From: Luteimonas mephitis DSM 12574
GTDB lineage: Bacteria > Pseudomonadota > Gammaproteobacteria > Xanthomonadales > Xanthomonadaceae
Assembly: GCF_000422305.1 (NCBI RefSeq)
Contig: NZ_KE383816.1
Location: 236,566 to 300,565 of the forward strand
Reading direction: 5' to 3'
Length of the DNA: 64,000 nucleotides
The position numbers and the translations under genes were made by a program. Below the pieces are notes generated by a model, which ran no database searches, was not told the DNA's origin, and was given only the letters and a program-made list of their open reading frames with translations. The stretch's first letter is position 1. Each line of letters opens with the position of its first letter. This document shows, in pieces, positions 2,409 to 23,034 of the stretch.

Positions 2409-3833
2409 ATGAGCGAGACGCGCAGCGCCCTGATCGTCGATGACGAACACGATATCCGCGAGCTGCTGGTCCTCACCCTGGGCCGCATGGGCCTGCGCAC
2501 GGACACCGCGCCCACGCTCGCCGCCGCGCGCGAGATGCTGGCCACCGTCTCCTACGACCTGTGCCTCACCGACATGCGCCTGCCCGACGGCTCCGGGCTG
2601 GAACTGATCAGCGACATCTCCACTCGCTTCCCCAACACGCCGGTGGCGATGATCACCGCCTTCGGCAACGTCGAGGCCGCGGTGGAAGCGCTCAAGGCCG
2701 GCGCCTTCGACTTCGTCGCAAAACCGCTCGACATCAACGTCCTGCGCGGCCTGGTGCGGCAGGCGCTGGAACTCAACACCAAGCGCCAGGCCCAGCCCGA
2801 GGAAGCCAGCCGCCTGCTCGGCAATTCCGAACCGATGGTGGGCCTGCGCGCCACCATCGCCAAGGTCGCCCGCAGCCAGGCGCCGGTGCACATCAGCGGC
2901 GAGTCCGGCACCGGCAAGGAACTGGTCGCCCGCACCATCCACGCCCAGGGCGCGCGCGCCGGCGGGCCGTTCGTGCCGGTCAACTGCGGCGCGATCCCGT
3001 CGGAGCTGATGGAAAGCGAATTCTTCGGCCACAAGAAGGGCAGCTTCACCGGCGCCCACGCCGACAAGCCCGGCCTGTTTCAGGCCGCAGACGGCGGCAC
3101 CCTGTTCCTCGACGAGGTGGCCGAGCTGCCGCTGTCGATGCAGGTCAAGCTGCTGCGCGCGATCCAGGAAAAGAACATCCGCCCGGTCGGCGCCTCGATC
3201 GAGGTCCCGGTGGACGTGCGCATCCTCTCGGCCACCCACAAGGACCTGGCCACGCTGGTCAACGACGGCCGCTTCCGCCACGACCTGTACTACCGCATCA
3301 ACGTCATCGAACTCGACGTGCCGCCGCTGCGCGAACGCACCGGCGACCTGCCGCTGCTGTCCGACGCCATCCTCCAGCGCCTCGCCCAGGCGATGAAGCG
3401 CGCCACGCCCAAGCTGTCGGCCGATGCCCTGGCCGCGCTCGACGCCTACCCCTTCCCGGGCAACGTGCGCGAACTGGAAAACATCCTCGAACGCGCCCTG
3501 GCCCTGGCCGACGGCGACGCCATCCACGCCGACGACCTGCGCCTGCCGGTGCAGCAGGGCGTGACCCCGGCCGCGGTCGCGTCCGCTTTCGTAAGCGCCA
3601 ACGCCGCGGCCGCCAGCAACCCCGGCGCCGCTGCCGCGCCGCCCGATCCGCGCAGCCTCGGCCCGCGCGAAACCGCCAGCAGCGCCCTGCCCTCGTACAT
3701 CGAGGAAATCGAACGCGCCGCCATCCAGCAGGCCCTGCAGGAAAACCGCTACAACAAGACCAAGGCCGCCGCCGCCCTGGGCATCACCTTCCGCGCGCTG
3801 CGCTACAAGCTCAAGAAGCTCGGCATCGACTGA
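2409..3833 (+). CDS. pilR: PilR, sigma-54 dependent response regulator
   Basis: This 474-residue NtrC-type activator turns on pilin transcription with RpoN. The receiver domain spans residues ~8-120, with phospho-acceptor Asp55 in [11 protein letters not shown]. The AAA+ domain has Walker A GESGTGKE starting near residue 164 and the sigma-54 contact loop GSFTGA at about 211-216 (Ser in place of the usual Ala). An Ala/Pro-rich linker (~385-420) leads to a Fis-type helix-turn-helix in the last 45 residues. It lies 735 bases after pilS with repeats between them, so it may have its own promoter. The sigma-54 sites before both pilin genes and pilB are its likely targets. Confidence 0.96.
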
Positions 3834-4559: not shown

Positions 4560-4913
4560 ATGAAGAACAACCAGCAAGGCTTCACCCTGATCGAACTGAT
4601 GATCGTTGTCGCGATCATCGCCATCCTGGCCGCCATCGCGCTGCCGGCGTACAACAACTACCGCATCAAGTCGGCCGAAAATGCCTGCATGGGCGAGGCC
4701 AAGGCGTTCATGAATTCGTGGGTTGCCGCCGCCAAGAGCGGTTTCACCGTGCCCACCTACGCTGCCGGCGCCTGCGTATCCAACGATGTCGCGCCTGTTA
4801 TTGCCAACGCCGAGGCAACCACGGTGACCTACGCCGCGACGTTCACCACCAAGGATCCTGGCGTGCGTGATCCGCGCTGCTCCGAGCAGACCGCGACCTG
4901 CACCTGGCAGTAA
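4560..4913 (+). CDS. pilA: Type IV major pilin, first copy
   Basis: A 117-residue type IVa prepilin. The short leader MKNNQQG is followed by the PilD cleavage site and mature start Phe8, with the invariant Glu at mature position 5 (residue 12) and the hydrophobic N-terminal helix [16 protein letters not shown]. Four cysteines (43, 72, 107, 114) are present; the last two frame a short C-terminal disulfide loop. The protein is short for the family (140-150 is usual). The ATG at 4560 is chosen because it alone gives a proper prepilin leader. It is preceded by a sigma-54 promoter, followed by a strong terminator, and so is transcribed alone. Confidence 0.95.
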
Positions 4914-4937
4914 TCGTCGATCCCATGCATTGCCCGC

Positions 4938-4966
4938 AAACCCCGCTTCGGCGGGGTTTGTTTTTT
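4938..4966 (+). terminator. Rho-independent terminator after the first pilin gene
   Basis: Stem AAACCCCGC / GCGGGGTTT with a TTCG loop, followed by G and six T. It closes the monocistronic pilin transcript. Confidence 0.92.
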
Positions 4967-5111: not shown

Positions 5112-5459
5112 ATGGTCCGCAGAGCGCGCGGCTTTACACTCATCGAACTGATGATCGTGGTAGCGATCATCGCCATCCTGGCCGCGATCGCGCTGCCGGC
5201 CTACAGCAACTACCGGATCCGCGCCGCGGAGACCGCCTGCCTGTCCGAGGCGAAGGCCTACGCCAACGACGCCCTCGTCCAGCTCTACCAGGAAGAAACG
5301 CCCGCCGCGCCAACGCTTGGCGCGTGCGCCACCCTGAGCGGCGGCTCGGCCATCGGTGACGACGTGGCGGCGACGCCGCGCACGCCGGGTAGCAGGGCCA
5401 TCACCTGCGCGATGGACAGCACCGGCAGCCATGGGCAGGCCAGCTGCCGGTACAACTGA
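5112..5459 (+). CDS. pilA2: Type IV major pilin, second copy
   Basis: A 115-residue prepilin paralogue of the gene just upstream. The leader MVRRARG precedes mature Phe8; the N-terminal helix is almost identical to the first copy, and cysteines 43 and 72 fall at the same positions. The C-terminal half is unrelated in detail (cysteines 99 and 112, ending SCRYN). The ATG at 5112 follows a purine-rich AGGGGGAAAA ribosome site. Conserved stalk with divergent globular part is typical of tandem pilins. Which copy is the main subunit cannot be told from sequence. Confidence 0.93.
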   Translation: MVRRARGFTLIELMIVVAIIAILAAIALPAYSNYRIRAAETACLSEAKAYANDALVQLYQEETPAAPTLGACATLSGGSAIGDDVAATPRTPGSRAITCAMDSTGSHGQASCRYN

Positions 5460-5643
5460 AGACTCCTTCGCCACTGGCAATGTTCCGCCTGCGTTCTGCG
5501 GGGGAATTTCCAATGCGCAGTGCCGGCTGTGCGTTCTGCCTGTCGGCCAGCGCAAGCTGCCATGGAAAGCGGCAACGCCACTGTGAGGGCGCTCGCGGCC
5601 AACATGAATACAATGCCGTGAATCCCTAGCGCGACTCTCCGGC

Positions 5644-7494
5644 ATGCCGCTTCGTTCGCTTCGCTACTTTCCGGCCGCCGTCCTGTGCGCACTGCTTGCC
5701 GCTGCCTTGCTGCTTCCCGGCCTGGGCGGCGGCTTCCTGCTGGACGACACGCCGACGATCGGCAACAACGCGGCGGTGCACGTTGCCACGCTGGATGCTG
5801 GCTCCCTGCAGCGGGCCGCCTACAGTTTCGCAGCCGGGGGCGGTTCGCGCGCCCTGCCGATGCTCACCTTCGCGATCGATTACTGGCGCGCCGGGCTGGA
5901 TCCCGCCGCTTTCAAGTCGACCAACATTGCCATCCATGCATTGACGACGCTGGCACTGGCCGGGCTCCTGCGCCTGCTGCTGACGCTCGCGGGCTGGCCG
6001 GCCCGACGTGCCGGCTACGGCGCGATCGCGCTGACGCTCGCTTGGGCCATCCATCCACTGCAAGTGTCTTCCGTGCTCTACGTCGTCCAGCGCATGCAGA
6101 CCATGGGCACCCTTCTCCTGGTGCTGGCGCTGTACGCCTACCTGAAGATGCGGCAGGCGCAGATGGCCGGCGAGCGCAGCCGCCAGTACGGCGTGCTCTC
6201 CGGACTGTGCTGGGTCCTGGCGCTGGCGTGCAAGGAAGACTCCGCACTGCTGCCCGCCTACACCCTGGCGCTTGAGCTGACCGTGCTGCGATTTCGCGCG
6301 GCACGGCCAGATTTCGCCAAGGCCATTGGCCGGCTGTACCTGGCCACCAGCCTGCTCGGGATCGCGATCTTCCTGTTCTACGTCGTGCCTCACTACTGGT
6401 CGTGGGATGCCTATGCGGGACGCAACTTCTCCTCGTCCGAACGGCTTTTGACCCAGGCGCGGGTGTTGTGCATGTATCTGGGGCAGATCCTGTGGCCCCT
6501 GCCCAGCCACATGCCGTTCTATTACGACGACCTGCAGCCATCACGCGGCCTGCTGCACCCCTGGACGACCTTGCCAGCGCTGCTGCTGGTCTTCGGACTG
6601 CTGGCGCTGGCCTGGCGATTGCGCGCCCGGCGCCCGCTGTTCGCACTGGGCATCTTCCTGTTCTTTGCCGGCCACGCGATTTCAAGCAACGTCATCGGCC
6701 TGGAGCTGGCGTTCGAGCATCGCAACCACTTCCCCCTGATCGGCGCGGTACTGGCGCTCAGCGACCTCTTCGTTGCCGCCGCTGCGCGCCTGCGGCTGTC
6801 CAGCCGCGCCACCGGTCTTGCCTGTGTCGCCATCCTCGTCGCGCTTGGCGGCGGAACCCTGTGGCGCGCGCAGGCGTGGGGCTCACCGGTCGGTTTTGCC
6901 GAGTACGGCACGCGGCTCGCACCCGCTTCGGAAAGGGCATGGATCAACCTTTGCGAGATCCATTTCGAGCTGAGCGGCAATCGCCCCGGGGATCCACACT
7001 TCGCCAAGGCGCTCGACACCTGCGGCAAGGGCGCGCAAATCCCATACGGCGCCACCAACCTGACCAATCTCGTCGTGCTGAAGACCATCGACGGCAGCGT
7101 GCGGCAAAGTGATTGGGATCAGCTGTTTGAGCGCATGGGCCAGGTCACCATGACCCGCAGCAACGCCGACGTCGCCTGGCACCTGGTGCGCTATTCCAAT
7201 GGCGACAAGCGCATCGATCCGCGCAACGTGATCCACGTCGTCGACATCGTTGGAGCACGCTCTGGCTTCAGGCCGGAGGAGTACGTGGCCTTCGGTTACT
7301 ACGCCGCCAAGAACGGGCTGGACGAGGATGCTTTCCGCTACTTCGTGAAGGCCGCGGAAACATCGCCCCGCAACAGCACGCTGCCGATGGCGCTGGTCGC
7401 GGACCTGCGCAAGGAGGGCCAGCCGGAATTCGCTGCACGCCTGCTGGCACTGCTCGAACAAGAACACGCACGCGGACAGCGCGCGGGACCTTGA
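5644..7494 (+). CDS. GT-C type membrane glycosyltransferase-like protein with TPR-like tail, copy 1
   Basis: A 616-residue integral membrane protein with about ten hydrophobic segments in the first ~420 residues. The first periplasmic loop carries an Asp-Asp pair (LLDDTPTIGNN, residues 34-35), the hallmark of GT-C enzymes that use lipid-linked sugars. Later motifs HPLQVSSVLYVVQR, CKEDSALLPAY and EHRNHFPLIGA match the layout of TMTC/PMT-like proteins. The last ~190 residues are soluble and TPR-like. It follows the pilin genes and is paralogous to the next gene. Inferred role: transfer of a polyprenyl-linked sugar to pilin or another periplasmic protein. No biochemical assignment is possible from sequence alone. 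Confidence 0.75.
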   Translation: MPLRSLRYFPAAVLCALLAAALLLPGLGGGFLLDDTPTIGNNAAVHVATLDAGSLQRAAYSFAAGGGSRALPMLTFAIDYWRAGLDPAAFKSTNIAIHALTTLALAGLLRLLLTLAGWPARRAGYGAIALTLAWAIHPLQVSSVLYVVQRMQTMGTLLLVLALYAYLKMRQAQMAGERSRQYGVLSGLCWVLALACKEDSALLPAYTLALELTVLRFRAARPDFAKAIGRLYLATSLLGIAIFLFYVVPHYWSWDAYAGRNFSSSERLLTQARVLCMYLGQILWPLPSHMPFYYDDLQPSRGLLHPWTTLPALLLVFGLLALAWRLRARRPLFALGIFLFFAGHAISSNVIGLELAFEHRNHFPLIGAVLALSDLFVAAAARLRLSSRATGLACVAILVALGGGTLWRAQAWGSPVGFAEYGTRLAPASERAWINLCEIHFELSGNRPGDPHFAKALDTCGKGAQIPYGATNLTNLVVLKTIDGSVRQSDWDQLFERMGQVTMTRSNADVAWHLVRYSNGDKRIDPRNVIHVVDIVGARSGFRPEEYVAFGYYAAKNGLDEDAFRYFVKAAETSPRNSTLPMALVADLRKEGQPEFAARLLALLEQEHARGQRAGP

Positions 7495-7539
7495 CCCACC
7501 TCCCTCCGCACCCCCATCGCCTCACCACCCATCGCAGCC

Positions 7540-9411
7540 ATGTCGACCAGCCCATCCGCAGCGACTCGTCGCTTCCTGCTACCCAGCTTGCTGATCGCCC
7601 TGCTTGCAGGCTTGCTCTATCTGCCTGGCCTGCCGGGTGAGTTCGTGTTCGACGATTACCCGAATATCGTCAATAACCCGGCCATCCAGCTTCAGGAGCT
7701 CAGTGTCGGGGAACTGAAGAGGGTCATCACCACCCCGCAACCATCGGGGAGCACGCGCAACCTGCCCAACCTGACCTTCGCGCTGGATTACTGGCGCGGC
7801 GGCGCCGATCCAGCCACGTTCAAGTCGACTAACATCCTGATCCATGCACTAACGGCCTTCGCACTGGCCTGGTTATTCCGCAGCCTGCTGTTGGCAGCCG
7901 GCGTCGACAAGGCGCGCGCGTACTGGCCCGCTGCAGCCATGGCCCTGGCATGGGCAGCACACCCATTGCTGGTGTCTTCAGTGCTGTACGTGGTGCAACG
8001 GTTGCAGACGATGGGCACCTTGTTCCTGGTGCTGTCGCTGCTGGCCTATCTGCGGGCGCGACGTGCCCAGATCGCCGGCCGGCCCGGTCGTACCGGCCTG
8101 CTCGGCACGGCACTATTGTGGATCGCGGCGATAAGCTGCAAGGAAGACGCCGCAGCCTTGCCTGCCTATACCCTGGCACTGGAGTTGACCGTCCTTCGAT
8201 TCAAAGCTGCGGATCCGCGACTGGCCGGCCTGCTACGACGCGGCTACCTGGTGATGGCAGTGGCGGCCGCGGTCGTGTATTTCCTTTGGGTTGTCCCAAA
8301 TCGCTGGCACTGGGATGCGTATCCGGGGCGTGACTTTTCCACTCCCGAACGGTTGCTGACCCAGGCGCGGGTACTGGCCATGTACCTGGGGCAGATCGTG
8401 TTGCCGCTCCCCTCGCACATGCCCTTCTTCTACGACTGGCTCGTCCCTTCACGGGGTTTCCTGCAGCCTTGGACGACGCTGGCATCGATTGGACTGATCC
8501 TGGGCCTGCTCGCCCTTGCTTGGCACCAGCGCCTGAAGCAACCCCTTCTGGCGCTCGGCATCCTCCTGTTCTTCAGCGCCCACTTCATCACCAGTAATGT
8601 GGTCGGGCTGGAACTGGCTTACGAGCATCGCAACCATTTCGCCCTGATCGGCGCGCTGCTGGCTGTCGGCAGCGTGCTGGCGGGCGCCTTCCGGCGCCTG
8701 CGCCTGGATCGCCCCACACAGGCGGTCATCTGCAGTGCGATGCTGCTGGCGCTTTGCGGCGCCACCATGGTCCGCGCGCACAGCTGGAGCAGCAACCTGC
8801 GGTTCGCACAAGCCGCCACGGTCGCAGCCCCGCACTCGGCCCGGGCATGGATCCAGCTATGCGCGGAATACTATGCGCTGGGAGGCGGTCCGAGGCCGGA
8901 CAACTCCCTGCTCGATTCCGCAATCGCGGCTTGCAACAGCGGCAGCACGCTTGCACCCGGTTCCCTCAACAGCCCGGCTTTGCGGATCGTCCTGAAGACC
9001 CTGCGTGGCGACATCGCGTCGCAGGACTGGGAGGACTTCCGGCAGCGCATGAAAAACGCCCCCAGGAGCGGAGACAACCGTCGCGCACCGACACTGCTTA
9101 CATACAACGCCCGCCGCGGCGTCAAGCTGGATCAACAGGAACTGCTCAAGGTATTCGCGGCACAGGACGAAACCACCAGTTTGCATCCGAGCGAGCTTGC
9201 CTCGATCGGCGATTTCATCATGAACGACATGGACCAACCGGACCTTGCGATGCCCTATTTCACCAAGGCCATTGCCCTGCTGCCACCGCTCGACCCGTTC
9301 CCTATGCAACTAGCCAGCGCACTGCACGCCAAGGGCAGGCCGGACCTGGCCGAAAAAATCCGGCAGCTTGCACTCGACAAAATGCAGACAGCGTTCAGTC
9401 AGACGACCTGA
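7540..9411 (+). CDS. GT-C type membrane glycosyltransferase-like protein with TPR-like tail, copy 2
   Basis: A 623-residue paralogue of the preceding gene, 45 bases downstream and probably co-transcribed. It shares the Asp-Asp loop (FVFDDYPNIVNN, residues 38-39), HPLLVSSVLYVVQR, SCKEDAAALPAY, LPLPSHMPFFYD and YEHRNHFALIGA in the same order, then a soluble C-terminal domain of ~200 residues. The two proteins are most alike in the membrane part and diverge in the C-terminal domain. The pairing of two pilins with two such proteins suggests, but does not prove, one enzyme per pilin. A hairpin follows at 9432-9448. Confidence 0.75.
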   Translation: MSTSPSAATRRFLLPSLLIALLAGLLYLPGLPGEFVFDDYPNIVNNPAIQLQELSVGELKRVITTPQPSGSTRNLPNLTFALDYWRGGADPATFKSTNILIHALTAFALAWLFRSLLLAAGVDKARAYWPAAAMALAWAAHPLLVSSVLYVVQRLQTMGTLFLVLSLLAYLRARRAQIAGRPGRTGLLGTALLWIAAISCKEDAAALPAYTLALELTVLRFKAADPRLAGLLRRGYLVMAVAAAVVYFLWVVPNRWHWDAYPGRDFSTPERLLTQARVLAMYLGQIVLPLPSHMPFFYDWLVPSRGFLQPWTTLASIGLILGLLALAWHQRLKQPLLALGILLFFSAHFITSNVVGLELAYEHRNHFALIGALLAVGSVLAGAFRRLRLDRPTQAVICSAMLLALCGATMVRAHSWSSNLRFAQAATVAAPHSARAWIQLCAEYYALGGGPRPDNSLLDSAIAACNSGSTLAPGSLNSPALRIVLKTLRGDIASQDWEDFRQRMKNAPRSGDNRRAPTLLTYNARRGVKLDQQELLKVFAAQDETTSLHPSELASIGDFIMNDMDQPDLAMPYFTKAIALLPPLDPFPMQLASALHAKGRPDLAEKIRQLALDKMQTAFSQTT

Positions 9412-9431
9412 TAACTACACTCGGCATCCAG

Positions 9432-9448
9432 CCGTCCCTGACGGACGG
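9432..9448 (+). terminator. Weak hairpin after the GT-C pair
   Basis: CCGTCC and GGACGG arms with a 5-base loop, 20 bases after the stop. There is no T-tract, so termination is uncertain. The remaining gap to 9618 has noticeably lower GC than its left flank and no gene I can support. Confidence 0.4.
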
Positions 9449-9618
9449 TCTGCGGGAGTACTACTCGTGAATGGATGCGACCTGATCATTCATAGAACCA
9501 TGGCCTTCCAATTCGCTCACATGACCCCACGCCCCGATGAGCGGACGATTGGCTGCAACCGTCGCGTCTTCCCCGATGACAAAAAGAAACGCCATCCATA
9601 CTTCCAGGCGAGCAGATA

Positions 9619-10782
9619 ATGACTGATGAATTCTTGGTGTTCGGCTCCCCGCTGATCGAAGAAGCCGAGATTGATGAGGTTATAGATTGCCTGCGTTCCA
9701 GTTGGCTCGGGACTGGCCCACGGGTGGCCAGGTTCGAGGCCGACTTTGCAAACTACAAGGCCGTATCGCCAGCGCAGGTCGCCGCTGTCAACTCGTGCAC
9801 GGCAGCGTTGCATGTCAGCATGGTCGCGGCCGGATTGGAGCCAGAAGCGGAGGTCATCACCACTCCTCTCACGTTCTGCGCAAGTATCAACGCCATCATC
9901 CACGCCGGACTAACCCCCGTGCTTGCCGACGTGGATCCCCAGACCTTGTGCATTTCGCCCGGCGCAATCGAGGCCGCGATCACCCCGCGCACCCGGGCCA
10001 TAGTGCCAGTTCATTTTGCGGGCCGTCCGTGCGAAATGGAGAGCATCATGCAGATCGCGGACAAGCACGGCCTGATAGTTATCGAAGACTGCGCCCACGC
10101 GATAGAAACCGAGTACCACGGTCGTAAGGCGGGCACTTTCGGGGATTTCGGCTGTTTCAGCTTCTACGCCACCAAGAACATCACCACAGGCGAAGGCGGC
10201 ATGATCCTCGGTCGCGATGAGACGCGCATCGCCCGCGCACGTGTGCTCGCCTTGCACGGCATGAGCAAGGATGCCTGGCACCGCTTTGGGGACGAGGGCT
10301 ACAAGCATTACCAAGTGGTGGAATGCGGTTTCAAGTACAACATGATGGACCTGCAAGCTGCGATCGGGCTCCACCAGCTGGCACGAGTCGAAGCAAGCTG
10401 GCGCCGGCGGCAGGCGATTTGGTCGCTCTATCAACAGGCATTCGCCGATCTGCCGATCACTCTTCCCACCGAGCCCGATCTGGACACCCGCCATGCGTAC
10501 CATCTGTATACGGTCCTCGTGGATGAGGCTCGGAATGGCGTCACTCGGGACGCTTTCCTCGACCGCATGAATGCCGCACGCATCGGTGCAGGCGTGCACT
10601 ACCTATCGCTGGCCGAGCACCCCTACTACCAAGAGCGCTTTGGCTGGCGTCCGGAGCAATGGCCCAATGCGATGCGAATCGGCCGACAGACCGTAAGCTT
10701 GCCGCTGTCGCCCAAGCTGGATAACGATGACGTGGAACGGGTCTCACGCACAGTACGGGCAAGCCTGTCGAGCGCGACGTGA
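9619..10782 (+). CDS. DegT/DnrJ/EryC1/StrS family sugar aminotransferase
   Basis: A 387-residue PLP enzyme of the family that aminates nucleotide-linked keto-sugars (ArnB, PglE, PseC type). Seen: the N-terminal segment SPLIEEAEIDEVIDCLRSSW, the PLP phosphate region EDCAHAIETEY, and the Schiff-base lysine Lys186 in FSFYATKNITTGEGGM. Length is normal. Its stop overlaps the GTG start of the next gene in GTGA, so the two are translationally coupled. Inferred role: making an amino-sugar for the glycan assembled by this island. The exact substrate is unknown, and no dehydratase partner lies in the window. Confidence 0.9.
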   Translation: MTDEFLVFGSPLIEEAEIDEVIDCLRSSWLGTGPRVARFEADFANYKAVSPAQVAAVNSCTAALHVSMVAAGLEPEAEVITTPLTFCASINAIIHAGLTPVLADVDPQTLCISPGAIEAAITPRTRAIVPVHFAGRPCEMESIMQIADKHGLIVIEDCAHAIETEYHGRKAGTFGDFGCFSFYATKNITTGEGGMILGRDETRIARARVLALHGMSKDAWHRFGDEGYKHYQVVECGFKYNMMDLQAAIGLHQLARVEASWRRRQAIWSLYQQAFADLPITLPTEPDLDTRHAYHLYTVLVDEARNGVTRDAFLDRMNAARIGAGVHYLSLAEHPYYQERFGWRPEQWPNAMRIGRQTVSLPLSPKLDNDDVERVSRTVRASLSSAT

Positions 10783-11732
10783 CCGAACCCGAGTCGCCCT
10801 CTGCAATGCGCGCCGGGAAGAATCCGGGAAATTGGCTTCGCCGCGCGCTGGTCGTCGTCCTTTTCGGCCTCGCCATCACATGGATTGGCTGGCGCATGTC
10901 CGGCGAGTTCGGCGACGCCCTCAGCAACATCGCCTCGATCGGAATGTGGCCATTCCTCGCGGCGATCGGACTGACATTGCTGTCACTGCTGTTCAGGGCG
11001 ATCTACAACGCGCTGATCCTCGACAGGCTGGCATCCTCGCCCTTTCCCTTCGGGCTGGCCATCACCGCCTACCTGCAGATGCAGCTGATCCGCTACCTGC
11101 CAGGGAAGGTTTGGGGACTTATCTATCAATCCCAGCGAATGGCAAACGTCCGCGCCCCGGCCTACGTGGTACTGGCGAACCTACTGCAGCTCGCCGTGGA
11201 CAGCTTTCTCACGCTGGGCGTACTGGCCCTTACGGCCGCGGTAATCTGGTTGTCCACGACTTGGCTCTGGGGAATCGTGCCCCTCCTGATTGCCGTGGAG
11301 TGGCTGCACCGCAATCCTGGCGCAGAAGTTGGGCTGCTCCGCCTGGCAGCCCGTTTCATGCCGCGGCTCGGGATCGTGGCGGATCACCGGCCGCGCCCCC
11401 TCCTGTGGCTGGGAACCGGATTGCTCGTTGCCGAATGGGTGACCTACCTGCTTTCGTTCGTTGTGCTTCTGACCCGCCATGGCTCCGTGCCGCAAGCCCT
11501 GGAAATGGGCGTTTCCTATGCGGGCTCCTCTCTGATGGCCACGGCAGCATTCGTTGTCCCGGCAGGCCTAGCGGTCCGCGAGGCAATCTTCTTGGCGCTA
11601 CCCGCACCGTCCGGGATTTCCATCGGCCTGCTCGCCACCACGGCGGTATTGCTGCGACTTATGCAGCTGGCGGCAGAATTGCTCGCCGCCCTGATATCCA
11701 CGGTCTTTCATTGGGTTCAAGCCCGTGAATGA
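10779..11732 (+). CDS. Flippase-like / LPG-synthase-TM family membrane protein
   Basis: A 317-residue integral membrane protein with about eight hydrophobic helices. The pattern of short charged loops, the segment FRAIYNALILDRL and the motif RYLPGKVWGL resemble the lysylphosphatidylglycerol-synthase transmembrane (UPF0104) family found in polysaccharide and glycolipid loci. It starts with GTG inside the previous stop and ends 8 bases into the following methyltransferase gene, so it belongs to a tight operon. Function (lipid-linked intermediate handling?) is an inference only. Confidence 0.65.
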   Translation: MTEPESPSAMRAGKNPGNWLRRALVVVLFGLAITWIGWRMSGEFGDALSNIASIGMWPFLAAIGLTLLSLLFRAIYNALILDRLASSPFPFGLAITAYLQMQLIRYLPGKVWGLIYQSQRMANVRAPAYVVLANLLQLAVDSFLTLGVLALTAAVIWLSTTWLWGIVPLLIAVEWLHRNPGAEVGLLRLAARFMPRLGIVADHRPRPLLWLGTGLLVAEWVTYLLSFVVLLTRHGSVPQALEMGVSYAGSSLMATAAFVVPAGLAVREAIFLALPAPSGISIGLLATTAVLLRLMQLAAELLAALISTVFHWVQARE

Positions 11733-12474
11733 ATTCTACGATCGACAGAAGGCGTACTGGGATTCGCTCGCAACGCTGGATCCCGACGCTTCCATCATCG
11801 ACCCGCGCGACAAACGCGGCTACAAGAACGCTTATCTCGCGCAGATGCGGGACTCGACTCTCCGCGAGGCGCTCGGCGTTCGCGTGAGTCCGGGCGCCAC
11901 GCTGCTCGACTACGGATGCGGGACAGGTAGCGCGACGATCGCACTCACGCGACTTGGCTATTCCGTAGTCGGCGCGGACCTGTCCACCTCCCTGCTATCA
12001 CATGCCCGGCACCGATGTGGCGATCAACGCGCGTTGTTTGTAGCGGTGGATGGCCGGTCAGTCCCGCTTCGCGATCACAGCATGGACGCTGCGATAGCTT
12101 ACGGTGTCTTCTGCTATGTCACCGACGAAGCAGAGGCAACCGCATTGCTTGCAGGCATACGCAAGACACTGATACCCGGTTCGCCGCTGTTGATCATCGA
12201 GCAGGCGCGACGTCACCGCACCGTTTGCGAACAGGGGCTCAAGGTCCAGCGAACCACCGATCAGTGGCGCGGCCTTCTGGCGGGCGCCGGCTTCAAGCGG
12301 ATCGGTCAAGCAATCCTGCGGCACGGCCGCTTTCCGACGACACCCCTGATCCGCCATGGCCTTGTGCCGAGAGGAGCATGGAGCGCACTAATGCGGGCCG
12401 AACGCGCCATTCCGCGGATCACTGGCGTGTGGCCTTGGGACTACGCCGACGTGTTGTTCAGCGCCGAGGCTTGA
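11725..12474 (+). CDS. Class I SAM-dependent methyltransferase
   Basis: A 249-residue soluble protein with a Rossmann methyltransferase fold. Motif I LLDYGCGTGS lies at residues ~60-69, acidic strand-2 end VVGADLS follows, and a post-I region has DAAIAYGVFCYV. It overlaps the upstream gene by 8 bases. Its 3' end overlaps the convergent acyltransferase gene by 34 bases. The likely substrate is a sugar or lipid-linked intermediate of this locus, but sequence does not identify it. Confidence 0.82.
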   Translation: MNEFYDRQKAYWDSLATLDPDASIIDPRDKRGYKNAYLAQMRDSTLREALGVRVSPGATLLDYGCGTGSATIALTRLGYSVVGADLSTSLLSHARHRCGDQRALFVAVDGRSVPLRDHSMDAAIAYGVFCYVTDEAEATALLAGIRKTLIPGSPLLIIEQARRHRTVCEQGLKVQRTTDQWRGLLAGAGFKRIGQAILRHGRFPTTPLIRHGLVPRGAWSALMRAERAIPRITGVWPWDYADVLFSAEA

Positions 12475-13331
12475 GCTTCGCTCCCGCGGCCCGATCCGAT
12501 AAGCCTCAGCACGGCCACAGCGCTCCTGCCCCGGAGCGTAAGCGGCTGCTGCCAGTACACGCGCCAGTGGGTCACGGCACCAAACGACTCCTTGTACTCT
12601 CGAAGTGCTGTCTGCCCCAAGGGCGATGCCAGCATGTCGAAGGTTCGGCTGCCGCGGTCACGGCTGGCTTCAATCGCCCAGGCCATTGCGAAGTAGCCAG
12701 GGCGAAGAGACGCATGTGAGTCTGCATAACCGCCATGCAGGTAGATGCTGTCCATTCCCTGATGAAGAACGGCGATGAAACCTGTCACGGCGTCATCCAA
12801 CACCACCTTGGCGACCATCAAGTCAGGGCTTCCCAGGCACAGTTCCTCGAAATACCGGCGTGTGTAGCGCACGGTGCCTCGCTGACGCCTGACGGTCCTT
12901 TCATAAAGCGCATACAACAGCTTGCCGTCACCCGGCTCAGCCGCGCGCATCCGAAGTCCGGCGCCCTCAGCCTTCCGCAGCTTGCGCCGCACTGGCGCGG
13001 CAAGGCGGCTGCGGTCCCATGCCTGAAGCCCTTCAATGCGACTTTCTGGCAGTCGAGCCAGTACTCCACAGTTGATTCCAGCCATCGCGTCCTCGGGGGC
13101 GCTGAGCCTGAGCAGGTCAACGCGAGCGCGGCACAATGCGGGGAGCGAGCCAGCCAAGCATTGCTGGATCGGAGTGTTGGCCATGCTGAAACCTACCGGA
13201 AATGACGGGTAGGCGATGCGGAACGGTCCTCGTCGAAGCACCAGCCAGTCAAGCGGGCCGACGCGCAGGATGACACCACCGAGTCCGTACAGCGCCCGAT
13301 GCCACGCAGCGGGAGACGCGTGGAGAGTCAT
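12441..13331 (-). CDS. FemAB/GNAT-like acyltransferase
   Basis: A 296-residue protein with the layout of FemAB-related GNAT enzymes (BioF2/CelD-like acyltransferases). A central basic helix, RSRLAAPVRRKLRKAEGAGL, precedes LLYALYERTVRRQRGT, and the C-terminal half has FIAVLHQGMDSIYLHGGY and ALREYKESFGA. Such proteins add amino-acyl or acyl groups to cell-envelope or polysaccharide acceptors. The ATG start overlaps the stop of the upstream glycosyltransferase gene by four bases. It is convergent with the methyltransferase gene. GC is visibly below that of the housekeeping genes. Confidence 0.75.
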   Translation of the reverse strand: MTLHASPAAWHRALYGLGGVILRVGPLDWLVLRRGPFRIAYPSFPVGFSMANTPIQQCLAGSLPALCRARVDLLRLSAPEDAMAGINCGVLARLPESRIEGLQAWDRSRLAAPVRRKLRKAEGAGLRMRAAEPGDGKLLYALYERTVRRQRGTVRYTRRYFEELCLGSPDLMVAKVVLDDAVTGFIAVLHQGMDSIYLHGGYADSHASLRPGYFAMAWAIEASRDRGSRTFDMLASPLGQTALREYKESFGAVTHWRVYWQQPLTLRGRSAVAVLRLIGSGRGSEAQASALNNTSA

Positions 13332-14452
13332 CGCAATGCCCCCGCGAGCGTGGCCAAGTCAAACTTGGACGCCATCGCAGACACGTCTTCCGCAAACTGA
13401 TCCGGTGATGTAGCCAAAGCCACTCGCAATGCGTCGGCATACGCGTCGGCGCGCAGCGCGCCCGCCAGAACGCCAGTTGGCGCTGCGCCAGCCACCAGCC
13501 GTGGCAGGTCACCAACCGGCATCGAGACCACTGGCCGCCCCAGTTTCATGGCGTCGGAAAACACCACGGGAATGCTCTCGATGCGCGAGGGGATCAGCAC
13601 CCAATCCGCGCTCGCGATTGCGGCTTCGGCTTCTACCTTGGCGAGATATTGCCCTGCGTGTACCGGGCGGCCAGCGCGCTGCAATCCTAGCGCACGGGAG
13701 CGAACCATTTTGTCGAGTGGCCCGCCGCCTTGGATGTCGATCCGTTCGATTCGCTCCCAGTCGTCGTCGCCAAGCCGATCCAGCGCATCCAGCAGTAAAT
13801 CGACCCCTTTGTTCGCATGCCAGCGCCCTAGAAAGATCAGCCGGTATGGCGGACTGTAACGCGGCCCGGCGGGTGCGGACAGAGCGATCCTGCGCGTGCT
13901 TGGCAGGAACGTCACCGGCGAGCCCGCAATACGCCCGGCATCGTCCGCGAGCCGGTAACCGTCGGCATATGCGTGTTCGGCCTGCCTGATCACACGCGCC
14001 AGCGCGCCACGCAGGCCAGGAATCTTTCCCAGCGACCACACGTCGCTTCCCAGCATCCAAACCGAATAACCGATGCGCCGCTCTCGCGCCACCCTGCGCG
14101 CCCATTCACCGCAAGGCAGGCCCCACAGCGCAAGCAAGTGGCTGGGGCCATCCGCAGTGGCGGCCCGCGTGGCCTGCAAGCCCCCTCGCAAGACCCGGGC
14201 AATCCATTTGGCATCGGGCAAGCGCCAGGGTCTGAGCGTAGATAGCGGCTTCTCTGGCGCGGGGTAGCGGAAGACGTCGACGCCGCCACACCAATGCTCG
14301 CGCGTGCTGTCGCCACCCGGTGCGACGACATGGACCGGGCCATCGATTGCCAATTGCTCGGCCAAGTCAGACACGAACGATCCGGCAGCCTCGCTCCCGT
14401 CACCGGCGATCGGGAAAGACGTGGTCACCAGGACAAAGGCCTGCCGCGTCAC
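13328..14452 (-). CDS. Glycosyltransferase family 4 (GT-B fold)
   Basis: A 374-residue cytoplasmic glycosyltransferase. The start is GTG at 14452, which overlaps the upstream methyltransferase stop (GTGA) and yields the typical first strand FVLVTTSFP; an upstream open extension has no such features. The C-terminal domain shows LIFLGRWHANKGVDLLLDAL and the donor-binding motif PSRIESIPVVFSDAMKLGRP, an E-x7-E variant with Asp as the second acid. Expected role: addition of a nucleotide sugar to a lipid-linked glycan. Donor and acceptor are unknown. Confidence 0.88.
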   Translation of the reverse strand: MTRQAFVLVTTSFPIAGDGSEAAGSFVSDLAEQLAIDGPVHVVAPGGDSTREHWCGGVDVFRYPAPEKPLSTLRPWRLPDAKWIARVLRGGLQATRAATADGPSHLLALWGLPCGEWARRVARERRIGYSVWMLGSDVWSLGKIPGLRGALARVIRQAEHAYADGYRLADDAGRIAGSPVTFLPSTRRIALSAPAGPRYSPPYRLIFLGRWHANKGVDLLLDALDRLGDDDWERIERIDIQGGGPLDKMVRSRALGLQRAGRPVHAGQYLAKVEAEAAIASADWVLIPSRIESIPVVFSDAMKLGRPVVSMPVGDLPRLVAGAAPTGVLAGALRADAYADALRVALATSPDQFAEDVSAMASKFDLATLAGALR

Positions 14453-15144
14453 GGCTTGACTGCCTCCAGCGAGTATCCAGTGGCCATGCCGCTCCAGTCC
14501 GGCCACAAGCGTCCGAGCGCGACCGTCGACAGGTTGATCACCGTTACAAGCATGGCGGCAATCGGCATCAGCAGCACGCTCAAGAGCCCCTTGCGGTAGT
14601 AGGCGCCGCCCGAGATCGCCAAGCACAACAGCAAACCTGCAGCACACACGGCATGTCCGCTCTTTTCTATCGCCGTGACCTGCAAGCCAGCCTGCTCAAT
14701 GTCTCGCCTCAGCCCGTGTTCGGTGAGGCGCTGGAAGTCGAAGGGGGCATCATGAATCGGATACAGGAATGGCATGGACAGATACAACCGCCCCCCTGGC
14801 CGAAGCACGCGGGCGATCTCGCCCAGAACCTCGCGGGGACGGCGCACGTGCTCCAATACTTCCAGGCAAACCACGGCATCGATTGTCTGGTCGGCGATTG
14901 GAAGCCGGGCGGCATCAGCGAACACGTCAGGGCGCGCGTGGTAGAGGTCGCGTCCGGTTGGAGGGTAGTCAAGCGCGATGTAGTCAACGCCGTCCGGCAA
15001 GTGGTGCGAAAGCCAGCGATCTCCGGCGCCGATGTCGAGCACGGTGCCTTGGAGGCTCACTGGCGCGCATCGACGTCTCATCAACCACTGCGGATGTAGC
15101 GGTGTACGCGCGAGCCACGCTAGCGAGGAACGAAGTTCGCCCAA
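14449..15144 (-). CDS. SAM-dependent methyltransferase with C-terminal membrane segments
   Basis: A 231-residue protein. The methyltransferase core has motif I TVLDIGAGDRW (residues ~34-44), YIALDYPPTG, and the post-I loop VVCLEVLEHVRRP. Unlike the other methyltransferase here it ends in two hydrophobic stretches (about residues 165-215), so it is probably membrane-anchored, which fits action on a lipid-linked sugar. It lies 4 bases after the GT2 gene and overlaps the GT4 start. Confidence 0.82.
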   Translation of the reverse strand: MGELRSSLAWLARTPLHPQWLMRRRCAPVSLQGTVLDIGAGDRWLSHHLPDGVDYIALDYPPTGRDLYHARPDVFADAARLPIADQTIDAVVCLEVLEHVRRPREVLGEIARVLRPGGRLYLSMPFLYPIHDAPFDFQRLTEHGLRRDIEQAGLQVTAIEKSGHAVCAAGLLLCLAISGGAYYRKGLLSVLLMPIAAMLVTVINLSTVALGRLWPDWSGMATGYSLEAVKP

Positions 15145-15148
15145 GACG

Positions 15149-16000
15149 CTATCGCTTTTGATAGGTGAGGCTCGTGATCTGCTCGGAGATCAAGCCGATC
15201 AGAAAGATGATTACCGCCGCGCTCAGCAACAGCATGCTCATGTTGGTGAATCGATGTTGGGTGACGAAGGTATACGCGTAGTAGCCAAGACCGATCAGCC
15301 CGAATCCGACGCTGACCGGTGCGAAGAGCTTCAGCGGCGAGTAAAGCGTGGCGATCTTGAAGATGATCAAGAGAAACCGGATGCCATCCCGAAGCGGACG
15401 GATGTGGCTGGTGTTGCCGACTCGCCGTGCCACGTGAATGGGCACGTATGCCACTGGATAGGCGCTGCGAAAGAACGCCATGGTGCTGGTGGTGGGATAG
15501 CTGAACCCATTCGGCAGCAGGTGCAGGAACTCCCGGAACCGGTCAGCGCGCGTGGCGCGGAATCCCGACGTCAGGTCGGCCACGCGATGGCCTGTCATCC
15601 AGCTGGCCAGGCGGTTGTAGAAGCGGTTGGCCAGGCTGCGGCCGGCGCTGGCCTGGCCCGCGCCGTCGCGCGCCCCCACCACCATGTCGTAGCCCTGCCC
15701 CAGCCGTTCCAGCAGATTGGCGATCTCGGCAGGGTCGTGCTGCCCGTCGGCATCCATGAACACGAGGATCTCGCCGCTGGCGGCCCGGGCGCCGCGCTTG
15801 ATCGCCGCGCCGTTGCCCATCGAGTACGGGCTCGAAAGCACCCTGGCCCCGTGGGCGGCGGCCACGTCGGCCGTGTCGTCGGTGGAGCCGTCATCCACGA
15901 CGATCAGTTCGGCGTCGGGCTGGGCGGCGCGCAGCCGCGGCAGGGTCTGGCGCAGGCCTTCGGCCTCGTTCTTGGCAGGCAGGATGACGGATAGGCGCAT
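15149..16000 (-). CDS. Glycosyltransferase family 2, DPM1-like polyprenyl-phosphate sugar synthase
   Basis: A 283-residue GT-A enzyme. The start at 16000 is chosen because MRLSVILPAKNEAEGL is the canonical N-terminus and an AGAGGGGAA ribosome site precedes it; a 29-codon upstream extension looks spurious. Seen: ELIVVDDGSTDDT, FMDADGQHDPAEI with the catalytic Asp-x-Asp, and two C-terminal hydrophobic helices (about residues 210-235 and 245-270), as in polyprenyl-phosphate mannosyl/glucosyl synthases. Such enzymes make the donors used by GT-C proteins, which links it to the two GT-C genes beside the pilins. It is divergent from pilB. Confidence 0.88.
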   Translation of the reverse strand: MRLSVILPAKNEAEGLRQTLPRLRAAQPDAELIVVDDGSTDDTADVAAAHGARVLSSPYSMGNGAAIKRGARAASGEILVFMDADGQHDPAEIANLLERLGQGYDMVVGARDGAGQASAGRSLANRFYNRLASWMTGHRVADLTSGFRATRADRFREFLHLLPNGFSYPTTSTMAFFRSAYPVAYVPIHVARRVGNTSHIRPLRDGIRFLLIIFKIATLYSPLKLFAPVSVGFGLIGLGYYAYTFVTQHRFTNMSMLLLSAAVIIFLIGLISEQITSLTYQKR

Positions 16001-16081
16001 GGATTCCCCTCTGGCGGCAAGAGTAGCCCGAAACGGTCGCCGACTGGAGGCGATGTCTCCGGAAAGTGGCGCAAGTCCCTT

Positions 16082-16129: not shown

Positions 16130-17854
16130 ATGAGTGCAGCCTCAACCGCCAACCTGGTCGGCATCACCGGCATCGCCCGCCGCCTCGTCCTGGACGGCGC
16201 GCTGGACGAAGCCACCGCCCGCGACGCGCTGGACAAGGCCACGGCCGGGCGCAAGCCCATCGCGGGGTACCTGCGCGAGCACAAGCTGGTGACCTCGGTG
16301 CAGATGGCCGCCGCCAACTCTGCCGAGTTCGGCATGCCGGTGTTCGACCCGGCGGCGATGGACGGCACCCAGAGCGCGGTCAAGCTGGTGAAGGAGGACC
16401 TGCTGCAGAAGCACAACGTGCTGCCGCTGTTCAAGCGCGGCGGCAAGCTGTTCGTGGGCACGGCCGACCCCACCAATGCCCATGCGCTGGACGAGATCAA
16501 GTTCCATACCAACCTGGCGGTGGAACCGATCCTGGTGGCCGAGGATGCGATCCGGCACACCCTGGAGCTGTGGCTGCAGGCGGCCGACAGCTTTGGCGAT
16601 GCGCTGGAAGACAGCGAGGGACTCGAGAACCTCGACATCGAATCCGGTGAAGAGGAGCAGCGCGACACCGGCACGGACGGCAAGCAGGACGACACGCCCA
16701 TCGTCAAGTTCGTCAACAAGGTGTTGATCGACGCGATCAAGCGCGGCGCCTCGGACATCCACTTCGAACCCTACGAGACCGACTACCGCGTGCGCCTGCG
16801 CATCGACGGCATCCTCAAGCAAACTGCCAAGGTGCCGGTGAAGCTCAACCAGCGCATCAGCGCGCGCCTGAAGGTGATGTCGCAGCTGGACATCGCCGAG
16901 AAGCGGGTGCCGCAGGACGGGCGCATGAAGATCAACATCAGCAAGACCAAGCAGATCGACTTCCGCGTCAGCACCCTGCCCACGCTGTTCGGCGAGAAGG
17001 TGGTGCTGCGCATCCTGGATGCCGGCGCGGCCAAACTGGGCATCGAAAAGCTGGGCTACGAGCCGGACCAGCAGAAGCTGTTCCTGGATGCGATCCAGAA
17101 GCCGTACGGCATGGTGCTGGTCACCGGCCCCACCGGCTCGGGCAAGACGGTGAGCCTGTACACCGCGCTGGGCATCCTCAACGACGAGATCCGCAACATC
17201 TCCACCGTGGAGGACCCGGTTGAAATCCGCCTGCCGGGCGTGAACCAGGTGCAGCAGAACGAACGCCGCGGCATGACCTTCGCCGCCGCGCTGCGCAGCT
17301 TCCTGCGCCAGGACCCTGACGTGATCATGGTGGGCGAAATCCGCGACCTGGAGACCGCCGAGATCGCGATCAAGGCCGCGCAGACCGGCCACATGGTGCT
17401 GTCCACCCTGCATACCAACGACGCGCCGCAGACCATCGCACGCCTGATGAACATGGGCATCGCGCCGTACAACATCACCAGCTCGGTGACCATCGTGATT
17501 GCCCAGCGCCTGGCGCGGCGGCTGTGCGAGCGCTGCAAGCGGCCGGTGGAGCTGCCGGACCATGCGCTGCTGGCCGAGGGCTTCACCGACGACGAGGTGC
17601 ACGCGGGCTTCACCGTCTACGAGGCGGCGGGCTGCGACGAGTGCACGGCCGGCTACAAGGGCCGCACTGGCCTGTACCAAGTGATGCCCATGACCGACGA
17701 GATCGCGAGCATCGTGCTGGCGGGCGGCAACGCGCTCCAGATTGCGGAGGCGGCGCAGCGTTCGGGCGTGCGCGACCTGCGCCAGTCGGCATTGCAAAAA
17801 GTGAAGGCAGGCGTGACCAGCCTGGCCGAGATCAACCGCGTGACCAAGGACTGA
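16130..17854 (+). CDS. pilB: PilB, type IV pilus extension ATPase
   Basis: A 574-residue hexameric GspE-family ATPase that powers pilus polymerisation at the inner membrane. The N-terminal GspE/MshEN domain covers ~1-170. Walker A GPTGSGKT is at residues 333-340. The Asp box IMVGEIRDLETAE and His box HMVLSTLHTNDAP follow. The zinc tetracysteine is LCERC...GCDEC near residues 465-510. Length is as expected. It is followed by pilC after a REP-A doublet and preceded by a sigma-54 type promoter. Confidence 0.97.
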   Translation: MSAASTANLVGITGIARRLVLDGALDEATARDALDKATAGRKPIAGYLREHKLVTSVQMAAANSAEFGMPVFDPAAMDGTQSAVKLVKEDLLQKHNVLPLFKRGGKLFVGTADPTNAHALDEIKFHTNLAVEPILVAEDAIRHTLELWLQAADSFGDALEDSEGLENLDIESGEEEQRDTGTDGKQDDTPIVKFVNKVLIDAIKRGASDIHFEPYETDYRVRLRIDGILKQTAKVPVKLNQRISARLKVMSQLDIAEKRVPQDGRMKINISKTKQIDFRVSTLPTLFGEKVVLRILDAGAAKLGIEKLGYEPDQQKLFLDAIQKPYGMVLVTGPTGSGKTVSLYTALGILNDEIRNISTVEDPVEIRLPGVNQVQQNERRGMTFAAALRSFLRQDPDVIMVGEIRDLETAEIAIKAAQTGHMVLSTLHTNDAPQTIARLMNMGIAPYNITSSVTIVIAQRLARRLCERCKRPVELPDHALLAEGFTDDEVHAGFTVYEAAGCDECTAGYKGRTGLYQVMPMTDEIASIVLAGGNALQIAEAAQRSGVRDLRQSALQKVKAGVTSLAEINRVTKD

Positions 17855-20190: not shown

Positions 20191-20208
20191 CCCAAAACCG
20201 CAGGCCGT

Positions 20209-20276
20209 GTAGGAGCGCCCCATGGGCGCGATTGGCGTTCCCGGTAAAGCCGTTCGCGCCCATGGGACGCTCCTAC
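20209..20276. repeat. REP-A inverted pair after pilD
   Basis: GTAGGAGCGCCCCATGGGCG with an inverted copy (one mismatch: GGGACGCTCC). It starts 18 bases after the pilD stop. Confidence 0.85.
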
Positions 20277-20300
20277 GGGCCTCCGGCGTGAGACGCCGCA

Positions 20301-20487
20301 CGTGACCGGATATCCATCGTGGCCCGTGCGCGGGCAAAACCGTCGGGGACGTAGCCCCGACCTACGCAGGATGCGCGGCCCGCCGATGCCGTAGGTCGGG
20401 CCTACGCGCCCGACGCTTCTCATCACCGGATATCCATCGCGACCCCATGCGCGGGCAAAACCGTCGGGGACGTAGCCCCGACCTACG
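20301..20487. repeat. Tandem duplicate carrying REP-B units before coaE
   Basis: A ~65-base block (CCGGATATCCATCG...GGGCAAAACCGTCGGGGACGTAG...) occurs at about 20301-20366 and again at 20421-20487. An oppositely oriented REP-B (20391-20413) lies between. The second copy ends 14 bases before the coaE start and so lies in its leader. Confidence 0.8.
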
Positions 20488-20500
20488 CCATAATCGGGCC

Positions 20501-21109
20501 ATGAGCGATTTCATCGTTGGGCTCACTGGCGGCGTGGCTTCCGGCAAGAGCGAGATCACCCGCCGCTTCGAGGCGCTGGGCATCGCCGTCGCCGACGCGG
20601 ACATCGCCGCGCGCGAAGCCGTGGCGGCGGGTTCGGCGGGGCTTGCCGAGGTGGTCGCCGAATTCGGGACCGGCGTGCTGGCGGAAGGCGGCGAACTCGA
20701 CCGGTTGGCGATGCGCAAGCGGGTGTTCGCCGACGACAGCGCGCGCAGGCGACTGGAGGCCATCGTGCATCCGCGCGTGCGTGCCACGTTGCGGGCTGCC
20801 TGCATCAGCGCAACCGGGCCCTACGCGATCGCGGCGATTCCGCTGCTGGCCGAGGGCGGCGGCCGCGCCGCCTACCCGTGGCTGGACCGCATCCTGGTGA
20901 TCGACGTGCCGGCAGCCGTGCAGCACGCGCGGCTGCTGCAGCGTGACGGCATCGACGGCGCCCTCGCCGATCGCATGATCGCCGCCCAGGCCACGCGCCA
21001 GCAGCGGCTGGCGATCGCCGACGACGTCATCGTCAACGACGGCCCCGTCGATGCGCTGGACGCCCACGTGGCCGCGCTGGACAGGCGCTACCGCAGCCTG
21101 GCCGGGTAG
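20501..21109 (+). CDS. coaE: Dephospho-CoA kinase
   Basis: A 202-residue P-loop kinase for the last step of coenzyme A synthesis. The start at 20501 gives the canonical N-terminus FIVGLTGGVASGKS with its Walker A loop; the upstream in-frame extension is repeat DNA. LID/CoA-binding segments such as ADADIAAREAV and IVHPRVRATLRAAC are present. The pilBCD-coaE order is usual in related bacteria. The TAG stop (21107-21109) lies within GTAGGAGCACCCC, the first bases of a REP-A unit. Confidence 0.96.
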   Translation: MSDFIVGLTGGVASGKSEITRRFEALGIAVADADIAAREAVAAGSAGLAEVVAEFGTGVLAEGGELDRLAMRKRVFADDSARRRLEAIVHPRVRATLRAACISATGPYAIAAIPLLAEGGGRAAYPWLDRILVIDVPAAVQHARLLQRDGIDGALADRMIAAQATRQQRLAIADDVIVNDGPVDALDAHVAALDRRYRSLAG

Positions 21110-21857: not shown

Positions 21858-21937
21858 CCGGCAAGCGTGATGGCCACACGCAACGCGCGGTATCGGCGAA
21901 CCCCGTCAAAACGCGTAGGCGAACCCCGCGCATGCGC

Positions 21938-22054: not shown

Positions 22055-22058
22055 GGGA

Positions 22059-23012: not shown

Positions 23013-23034
23013 CAGCCAGCAGCCGCCTGGTTCC

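Follow-up and report, generated by a model that had tools for sequence, protein, structure and literature searches.

A candidate pilin glycosylation island with constant and exchangeable parts in Luteimonas mephitis

The stretch analysed here, which we call the window, comprises 64,000 nucleotides of the 3.4 Mb genome of Luteimonas mephitis DSM 12574 (NZ_KE383816.1, positions 236,566-300,565). Within it, genes for predicted glycosyltransferases (GT) and sugar-modifying enzymes lie between two pilin genes and pilB, encoding the extension ATPase. An initial annotation had proposed that this block of genes builds a glycan, modifies it and transfers it to pilin. All the genes that it listed are present, in the order it gave, and we consider it likely that the locus is a pilin O-glycosylation island having constant and exchangeable parts. 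The genes are as follows, in window coordinates.

54-1673, + strand: pilS, sensor kinase (PF25323 6TM_PilS, HisKA, HATPase_c)
2409-3833, + strand: pilR, sigma-54 response regulator (PF00158, PF00072, PF02954)
4560-4913, + strand: pilA1, short major-type pilin, a possible acceptor (PF07963)
5112-5459, + strand: pilA2, short major-type pilin adjoining GT-C1 at 185 bp, the likely acceptor (PF07963)
5644-7494, + strand: GT-C1, predicted TMTC-like glycosyl- or oligosaccharyltransferase with a tetratricopeptide repeat (TPR) tail (motifs, AlphaFold2 model, fold matches)
7540-9411, + strand: GT-C2, paralogue of GT-C1 (48% identity) with the same motifs
9619-10782, + strand: DegT/ArnB-like sugar aminotransferase (PF01041, E 1.7e-126; best solved relative ArnB, 1mdo, E 3.2e-82)
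10779-11732, + strand: LPG_TM-like membrane protein, candidate flippase (PF03706, 19.7 bits, under the cut-off of 33.4)
11725-12474, + strand: MT1, S-adenosylmethionine (SAM) methyltransferase (PF08241, E 4.7e-16)
12441-13331, - strand: GNAT/FemAB-like acyltransferase (PF13480, E 1.6e-11)
13328-14452, - strand: GT4 glycosyltransferase (PF13692, E 2e-17, scored on a longer reading)
14449-15144, - strand: MT2, SAM methyltransferase with C-terminal hydrophobic segments (PF08241, hydropathy)
15149-16006, - strand: GT2, DPM1/ArnC/AglJ-like polyprenyl-phosphate sugar synthase, the constant anchor of the island (PF00535, E 3e-31)
16130-17854, + strand: pilB, extension ATPase, the right border of the island (PF00437, PF05157)

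The gene for pilB is followed by pilC and pilD, and then by a gene labelled coaE from its sequence. Both pilins assigned to positions 5112-16000 in the initial annotation exist, although pilA1 lies just before that interval, and the C-terminal segments of MT2 are in keeping with its description of one methyltransferase as membrane-anchored. Gene ends overlap at 10779/10782, 11725/11732, 13328/13331 and 14449/14452. The overlaps run from DegT to MT1 on the + strand and from MT2 to the GNAT/FemAB-like gene on the - strand, which suggests two convergent operons. The start of GT4 is probably the GTG at 14452, overlapping the MT2 stop. A terminator-like hairpin of 11 pairs with a T run lies between pilA1 and pilA2 at 4936-4961, one of 19 such sites that the scan found where 7.9 were expected. 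Such a hairpin after a pilin gene is also described for pilin-accessory cassettes in a passage of PMC11841053.

GT-C proteins and their linkage to pilin genes

Neither GT-C1 nor GT-C2 matched any Pfam or NCBIfam model. When 21 members of their family were scanned at E values up to 10, 16 families were matched (the HMMER filters remove most matches above 0.1), and neither Wzy_C (PF04932, IPR007016) nor the TMTC/DUF1736 profile was among them. Wzy_C gave no match in ten window proteins at an E value of 0.01, in agreement with the earlier statement that the island has no canonical PglL or PilO. The TPR tail is assigned from profile and fold matches, and at most four of the 21 relatives match any one TPR model, weakly. 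Searches of the Protein Data Bank (PDB) by sequence returned TPR proteins and other low-scoring chains, and no glycosyltransferase.

Eleven residues are invariant in all 21 rows of the GT-C alignment, namely D34, D35, R69, R150, K197, E198, D199, D295, E358, H359 and R360. D295 is followed by W in 15 of the rows, and Gln152 takes the place of the Asp of the RxD motif, with R150 retained. The HK (of SHKSYRP) and PxxP motifs of TMTC were not seen in the alignment. The AlphaFold2 model of full-length GT-C1 had a mean predicted local distance difference test score of 87.4 and a predicted template modelling score (pTM) of 0.83, and in the models of GT-C proteins we counted 11 membrane helices followed by a helical TPR tail. 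A fold search with the full-length model was swamped by TPR matches, and the transmembrane part of GT-C1 was therefore folded separately, with a pTM of 0.89. The 11 best matches of this part in the PDB were chains of oligosaccharyltransferase (OST)-containing complexes, DPY19, ArnT, AftB and Pmt4. GT-C is apparently an undescribed family with a TMTC-like build. In literature searches that excluded most subscription-journal papers and all bioRxiv preprints, no paper among those listed names the family as a pilin enzyme, and none combines TMTC, pilin and glycosylation. GT-C matches in four genomes (G123, G290, G313 and G349) each contain one in-frame TGA; the G123 locus (L050) nevertheless has an open frame of 649 amino acids, and the stop may fall near the end of the match.

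Adjacency to pilin genes was measured by direct profile and pattern scans. With GT-C1 alone as query, 17 loci were found in named genomes, including a Roseateles (L014) and a betaproteobacterial metagenome-assembled genome (L008), and a pilin open reading frame (ORF) lay within 650 bp in every one of them. GT-C was matched in 180 of 395 genomes of the family Xanthomonadaceae (E 1e-10). A pilin was present within 500 bp of the GT-C in 53 of 55 family loci, which were picked from three score bins of the listed matches, and of 30 short pieces cut around the strongest matches in the family, 23 contained a pilin ORF. By the pilin pattern, genus loci with GT-C had a pilin within 650 bp in 15 of 17 cases; divergent pilins escape the pattern, as at L069 and L082, where BLAST detected a pilA-like ORF next to the GT-C and the pattern did not.

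At the level of the class, the membrane part of GT-C was matched in 84 of 274 genomes. Among the 28 best-scoring loci from other families, 16 had a pilin at 0-195 bp. A pilin was also present, at up to 442 bp, in 15 of 20 lower-scoring loci, which were selected by hand and given wider flanks. In all those 15 a GT2 is found within 274 bp of a GT-C. Pilins are thus near the GT-C in 31 of 48 class loci overall, as against none of 30 loci of a control GT-C family, PMT_2; the association is almost complete within the family and partial at class level. Many loci carry one GT-C rather than two. The initial annotation had cast the twin TPR proteins as the transferase. The link of GT-C to pilin supports this, although the twin copies are not essential. 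One locus (L235, G557:C47) has three tandem GT-C ORFs, with no pilin found in its 6 kb piece, and in several class genomes GT-C was matched more than once, some of the matches being pieces of one gene.

The sequence of the GT-C also varies with that of its neighbor. In the 41 of 118 loci that have all parts, with duplicate contigs (L013/L051 and L016/L073) removed from these analyses, GT-C distance was correlated with that of the head of the adjacent pilin (r = 0.40, p = 0.001), and the correlation persisted after controlling for PilR or GT2 distances. GT-C distance was uncorrelated with GT2 (0.04) or PilR (-0.01), and GT2 distances tracked PilR (0.35). In loci with two usable pilins (55 of 118) the near pilin correlated with GT-C at r = 0.68, and at 0.58 given the far pilin; the far pilin given the near one gave -0.07. 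The 41 loci, the window included, comprise 12 with mature pilins of fewer than 120 amino acids and 29 with longer forms. Mean GT-C distance is 0.55 beside short pilins, 0.70 between short and long, and 0.67 within long. Co-variation with the near pilin is what a pilin-specific transferase predicts. We take it as support rather than proof, because joint transfer of pilin and GT-C predicts the same pattern.

GT2 and the exchangeable interior of the island

GT2 has the features of polyprenyl-phosphate sugar synthases such as dolichol-phosphate mannose synthase (DPMS), ArnC and AglJ, from which its activity is predicted. Its best profile matches were DPM synthase (5mlz, E 3.4e-21) and ArnC (9hwj, E 3.6e-21), it matched the AglJ model at E 1.4e-38, under the cut-off, and hydropathy indicates two C-terminal hydrophobic segments. 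With a threshold for GT2 of E 1e-60, GT-C and GT2 occur together in 160 of the 395 family genomes, GT-C alone in 20, GT2 alone in 5 and neither in 210, giving an odds ratio of 336. Within the genus, pilB was detected in 50 of 52 genomes. Of 45 pilB regions, 16 have both GT-C and GT2, one has GT-C alone, none has GT2 alone and 28 have neither. In genus loci without GT-C the nearest pilin lies a median of 330 bp from pilB (71 bp to 12.8 kb, a pilin being found in 21 of 28), and in those with GT-C the farthest pilin found lies a median of 12.7 kb away (15 of 16; the piece with the seventeenth GT-C locus, L079, contained no pilB).

We compared 62 islands taken from 118 loci, L008 and L014 being excluded because their GT-C and GT2 adjoin. 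Two of the 62, L016 and L073, are the same contig and both were counted; L013 and L051 are likewise one contig. Comparison of the pilA-pilB interval across relatives, as the initial annotation had suggested, shows pilin, GT-C, variable genes and GT2 recurring in the 62 loci, and because of this recurrence the arrangement is not due to chance. Median pairwise identity is 76.5% for GT2 and 36% for GT-C. Of the interior DNA, the share lying in ORFs that have a homologue in the second island of a pair has a median of 0. The interior of the window island is 98% common to L142 and L131, from other genera, though the GT-Cs are only about 37% identical. It is 0% common to L003, though there the GT-C is 72% and GT2 81% identical. 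We observe, then, a constant pair of predicted transferase and donor synthase with exchangeable glycan cassettes.

The interior genes were tallied by Pfam family, using 129 of 144 predicted ORFs from 24 loci, which represent 22 loci; the 15 left out were three from L009, two from L088 and ten doubtful or small. Among the 25 families listed of the 76 matched, there are mainly 26 methyltransferases, 24 GT4, 12 GT2, eight Wzx-like proteins, seven DegT, seven epimerases and five LPG_TM. The initial annotation would have been refuted if the genes at 9.6-16.0 kb occurred in relatives far from pil genes and linked to O-antigen export genes, which was not observed for the two genes followed. The LPG_TM-like and the GNAT/FemAB genes each have five non-self homologues in 198 family genomes (E 1e-15), and for both genes all five are in pil islands, the placement in G090 being judged from its GT2 within 6 kb.

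A proposed pathway and its alternatives

From these observations a pathway can be suggested. On the cytoplasmic side, GT2 would take the initial sugar, which would be constant, from a nucleotide sugar and attach it to undecaprenyl phosphate. The products of the variable genes, here GT4, DegT, the two methyltransferases and the GNAT/FemAB-like protein, would extend, aminate, acylate and methylate the glycan. A flippase, here perhaps the LPG_TM-like protein and in some other islands Wzx-like proteins, would move it to the periplasm. The GT-C, with its periplasmic Asp-Asp loop and TPR tail, would bind its cognate pilin in the inner membrane and transfer the glycan to a serine or threonine in the pilin head. 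ArnB is the closest solved relative of DegT, which makes it plausible that DegT forms a 4-amino sugar and that the GNAT/FemAB-like enzyme N-acylates the product. The island proteins include no dehydratase for the DegT substrate, and the keto-sugar would thus have to be supplied from outside the island.

The proposal that the block builds, modifies and transfers a glycan to pilin is supported by linkage beyond this genome and by co-variation of GT-C with the adjacent pilin, and the same comparisons do not favor the alternative raised with it, an O-antigen or exopolysaccharide locus sitting between pilA and pilB by chance. Such loci hold genes like those of the interior (GT4, DegT, methyltransferases, epimerases and some Wzx-like), and Wzx-like proteins are present in the islands of some relatives. 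Yet no phosphoglycosyltransferase (PGT; Bac_transf), Wzx, Wzy_C or exporter family was matched among the ten window proteins scanned, and the two Wzy_C proteins of the genome (C2 and C5) and its one PGT (C5) lie away from the window. Linkage of the GT-C/GT2 pair to pilins moreover extends across families, GT-C varies with the pilin next to it, and the two island-specific genes followed through relatives at E 1e-15 turned up in pil islands only. A locus placed there by chance is therefore rejected on the linkage to pilin and on the lack of PGT, Wzx, Wzy and exporter in the window island, and we regard it as improbable. Slightly more improbable still is that the GT-C/TPR protein is a non-catalytic factor for pilin assembly, like TfpY in Pseudomonas aeruginosa, with the island genes serving another glycan. 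TfpY-like accessory proteins do adjoin pilins and promote assembly, and TPR tails bind proteins. Against this, GT-C and GT2 co-occur in 160 of the 185 genomes having either. The invariant DD, KE, D and E..R also match donor- or metal-binding positions of TMTC, ArnT and OST given in parts of PMC7801869.

An alternative that we take more seriously, while thinking it rather unlikely, is that the GT-C adds a single sugar from undecaprenyl phosphate in the manner of TMTC and ArnT, with the interior genes acting on that sugar or later, instead of transferring an oligosaccharide en bloc. This differs from the pathway above in the order of steps alone, and our confidence in the two overlaps. Class loci in which pilin, GT-C and GT2 are adjacent, together with L008 and L014, suggest that the pair can be a minimal unit, and DPMS and ArnC, which GT2 resembles, are monosaccharide synthases. 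The GT4 enzymes and Wzx-like proteins of many islands suggest, to the contrary, that a longer lipid-linked glycan is built in the cytoplasm.

A number of points weigh against the assignment to pilin glycosylation as a whole. Gene content, linkage, co-occurrence, co-variation and exchange of interior genes are established directly; the case for glycosylation is comparative, and from it we infer the glycan, donor, acceptor residue, chemistry and order of steps. The fold matches of the GT-C1 membrane part are weak (E 0.017 to 0.093), with transporters from rank 14, and the role of the LPG_TM-like protein as perhaps a flippase depends on its sub-threshold match to PF03706. GT2 was missing from 20 of the 180 genomes with GT-C. 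The co-variation can also arise if a single DNA segment carries pilin and GT-C together when it moves, and raised serine and threonine content in pilins beside a GT-C was rejected as a predictor (0.210 vs 0.204, p = 0.66). Seven of the 30 short pieces had no pilin, the window's own GT-C2 being among them; all seven are from genomes in which GT-C was matched two or three times, and in these another GT-C can intervene between the GT-C and the pilin. No pilin was nearby in 17 of the 48 class loci. Six of the 12 top class loci lacking a pilin were re-examined: two have the contig end beside the GT-C, and in the other four the piece contains no major pilin, one of these four having another pilin-like ORF 2.6 kb from the GT-C. 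Finally, the pieces of the PMT_2 control were slightly shorter than the GT-C pieces, about 3.5 kb as against about 4.2 kb, and were centered on a domain rather than the whole gene.

Related loci and known systems

A broader proposal, on which we are evenly divided, is that bacterial TMTC-like GT-C/TPR proteins are a widespread, unnamed class of pilin-specific O-glycosyl- or oligosaccharyltransferases using lipid-monophosphate-linked glycans from a dedicated GT2. The pilA-pilB interval would then be a serotype-like locus at which species swap pilin together with GT-C and, as a separate unit, the glycan cassette, the probable driver being attack by phages that bind pili. From a design with constant and variable parts one would expect many pilus glycotypes, and their exchange and their effect on such phages would be directly testable. 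The results suggest a role for prokaryotic TMTC-like proteins, and the GT-C family may be a source of enzymes for coupling unusual glycans to proteins.

Four loci of the same genus without the island encode an enzyme of sulfatase/phosphoethanolamine-transferase type (PF00884) between pilA and pilB or beside pilA (L055:6264-8357, L059:5982-7739, L064:3474-5330 and L087:14534-16612); that of L059 also matches EptA_B_N. These may be an alternative, phospho-form pilin modification, and the interval may be a general hotspot for pilin modification. In another locus, with 12.8 kb to pilB, a 643-amino acid ORF without a Pfam match lies beside the pilin (L076:4278-6206), and the interval has methyltransferase- and GT-like ORFs and no GT-C of the island family. 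This ORF is perhaps another family of pilin transferase. Elsewhere in the window, at 20199-23170, a 38-nucleotide repeat occurs seven times, with five copies within 78-nucleotide units, around a Y1_Tnp (IS200-like) gene at 21381-21857, resembling what we take to be the REP/RAYT family.

PglL, PilO/TfpO, PglS and TfpM use glycans linked to undecaprenyl pyrophosphate. They share with the island the proposed O-glycan on pilin, and the genes for TfpO, TfpM and PglS are linked to those of their substrates (excerpts of PMC12645811); here the GT-C is so linked to pilin, its presumed substrate, in the 53 family loci. They differ in having WaaL-like or O-antigen-ligase domains, according to the same excerpts, whereas the GT-C gave no Wzy_C match. 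The Pgf operon of Streptococcus mutans (PgfS, a GT2, with PgfM1, PgfE and PgfM2) is similar in that a glycosyltransferase and other genes of an operon modify surface proteins, and the window GT2 matches the PgfS model NF047588 weakly (E 1.7e-18, far under the cut-off). The substrates there are surface proteins of a Gram-positive organism, and the abstract mentions no pilins or variable cassette.

The build of the GT-C resembles that of TMTC1-4, the animal cadherin O-mannosyltransferases, which use Dol-P-Man and have a DD loop, KE, E..R, 11 transmembrane helices with a TPR tail and a DPM1-like partner. As set out in parts of PMC7801869, the donor and metal sites of TMTC include DD, RxD, KE(T/Q)xxT, DW and ERxxY, the DD aligns with active-site residues of ArnT, Pmt and EmbA-EmbB, and full-length prokaryotic homologues had not been well characterised as of 2021. 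The DD in loop 1 and the KE in loop 3 are kept in the GT-C, and the ER that precedes TM10 in TMTC is here E-x-R. The GT-C differs in giving no TMTC/DUF1736 match, and the HK of M2, the Asp of M3 and PxxP were not seen in it. In contrast to TMTC, the acceptor would be pilin, and the glycan is probably more than one mannose.

In Xanthomonas, exchange of pilA types by horizontal transfer is described in a passage of PMC4235730. In X. vesicatoria BNM 214/216 the homologous position, between pilB and pilC, is reported to hold a pilin gene, two glycosyltransferases, a RarD/EamA transporter gene and two hypothetical genes. These are annotations alone, and the sections consulted of PMC10333488 propose no pilin glycosylation.

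The nearest system in its logic is TfpW, the pilin arabinosyltransferase of P. aeruginosa group IV (P. paraeruginosa), which we compared by description rather than by sequence. In 2008 it was reportedly described as a pilin GT-C using a polyprenyl-phosphate sugar. TfpW acts specifically on pilin, and its gene shares with that of the pilin a horizontally moving cassette that protects from some phages (passages of PMC11841053 and PMC12369383); a cited title assigns the enzyme to the GT-C class. Here too a transferase of predicted GT-C fold adjoins pilA, with fold matches that are weak (E 0.017 at best). P. paraeruginosa has its D-arabinofuranose genes outside the pilin locus (PSPA7_6245-6251 vs 5159-5161), whereas in the present island the glycan genes and GT2 are inside the pil locus and the glycan genes vary; no D-arabinofuranose donor pathway families (ubiA and others) were found among the window island proteins. 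A GT-C that is encoded beside pilin and glycosylates it is thus already known in Pseudomonas, and the earlier claim of a new pilin-modification system holds in part. What appears to be new is a second, apparently undescribed TMTC-like GT-C family without a curated model, together with a predicted donor synthase that stays constant and glycan genes that are exchanged.

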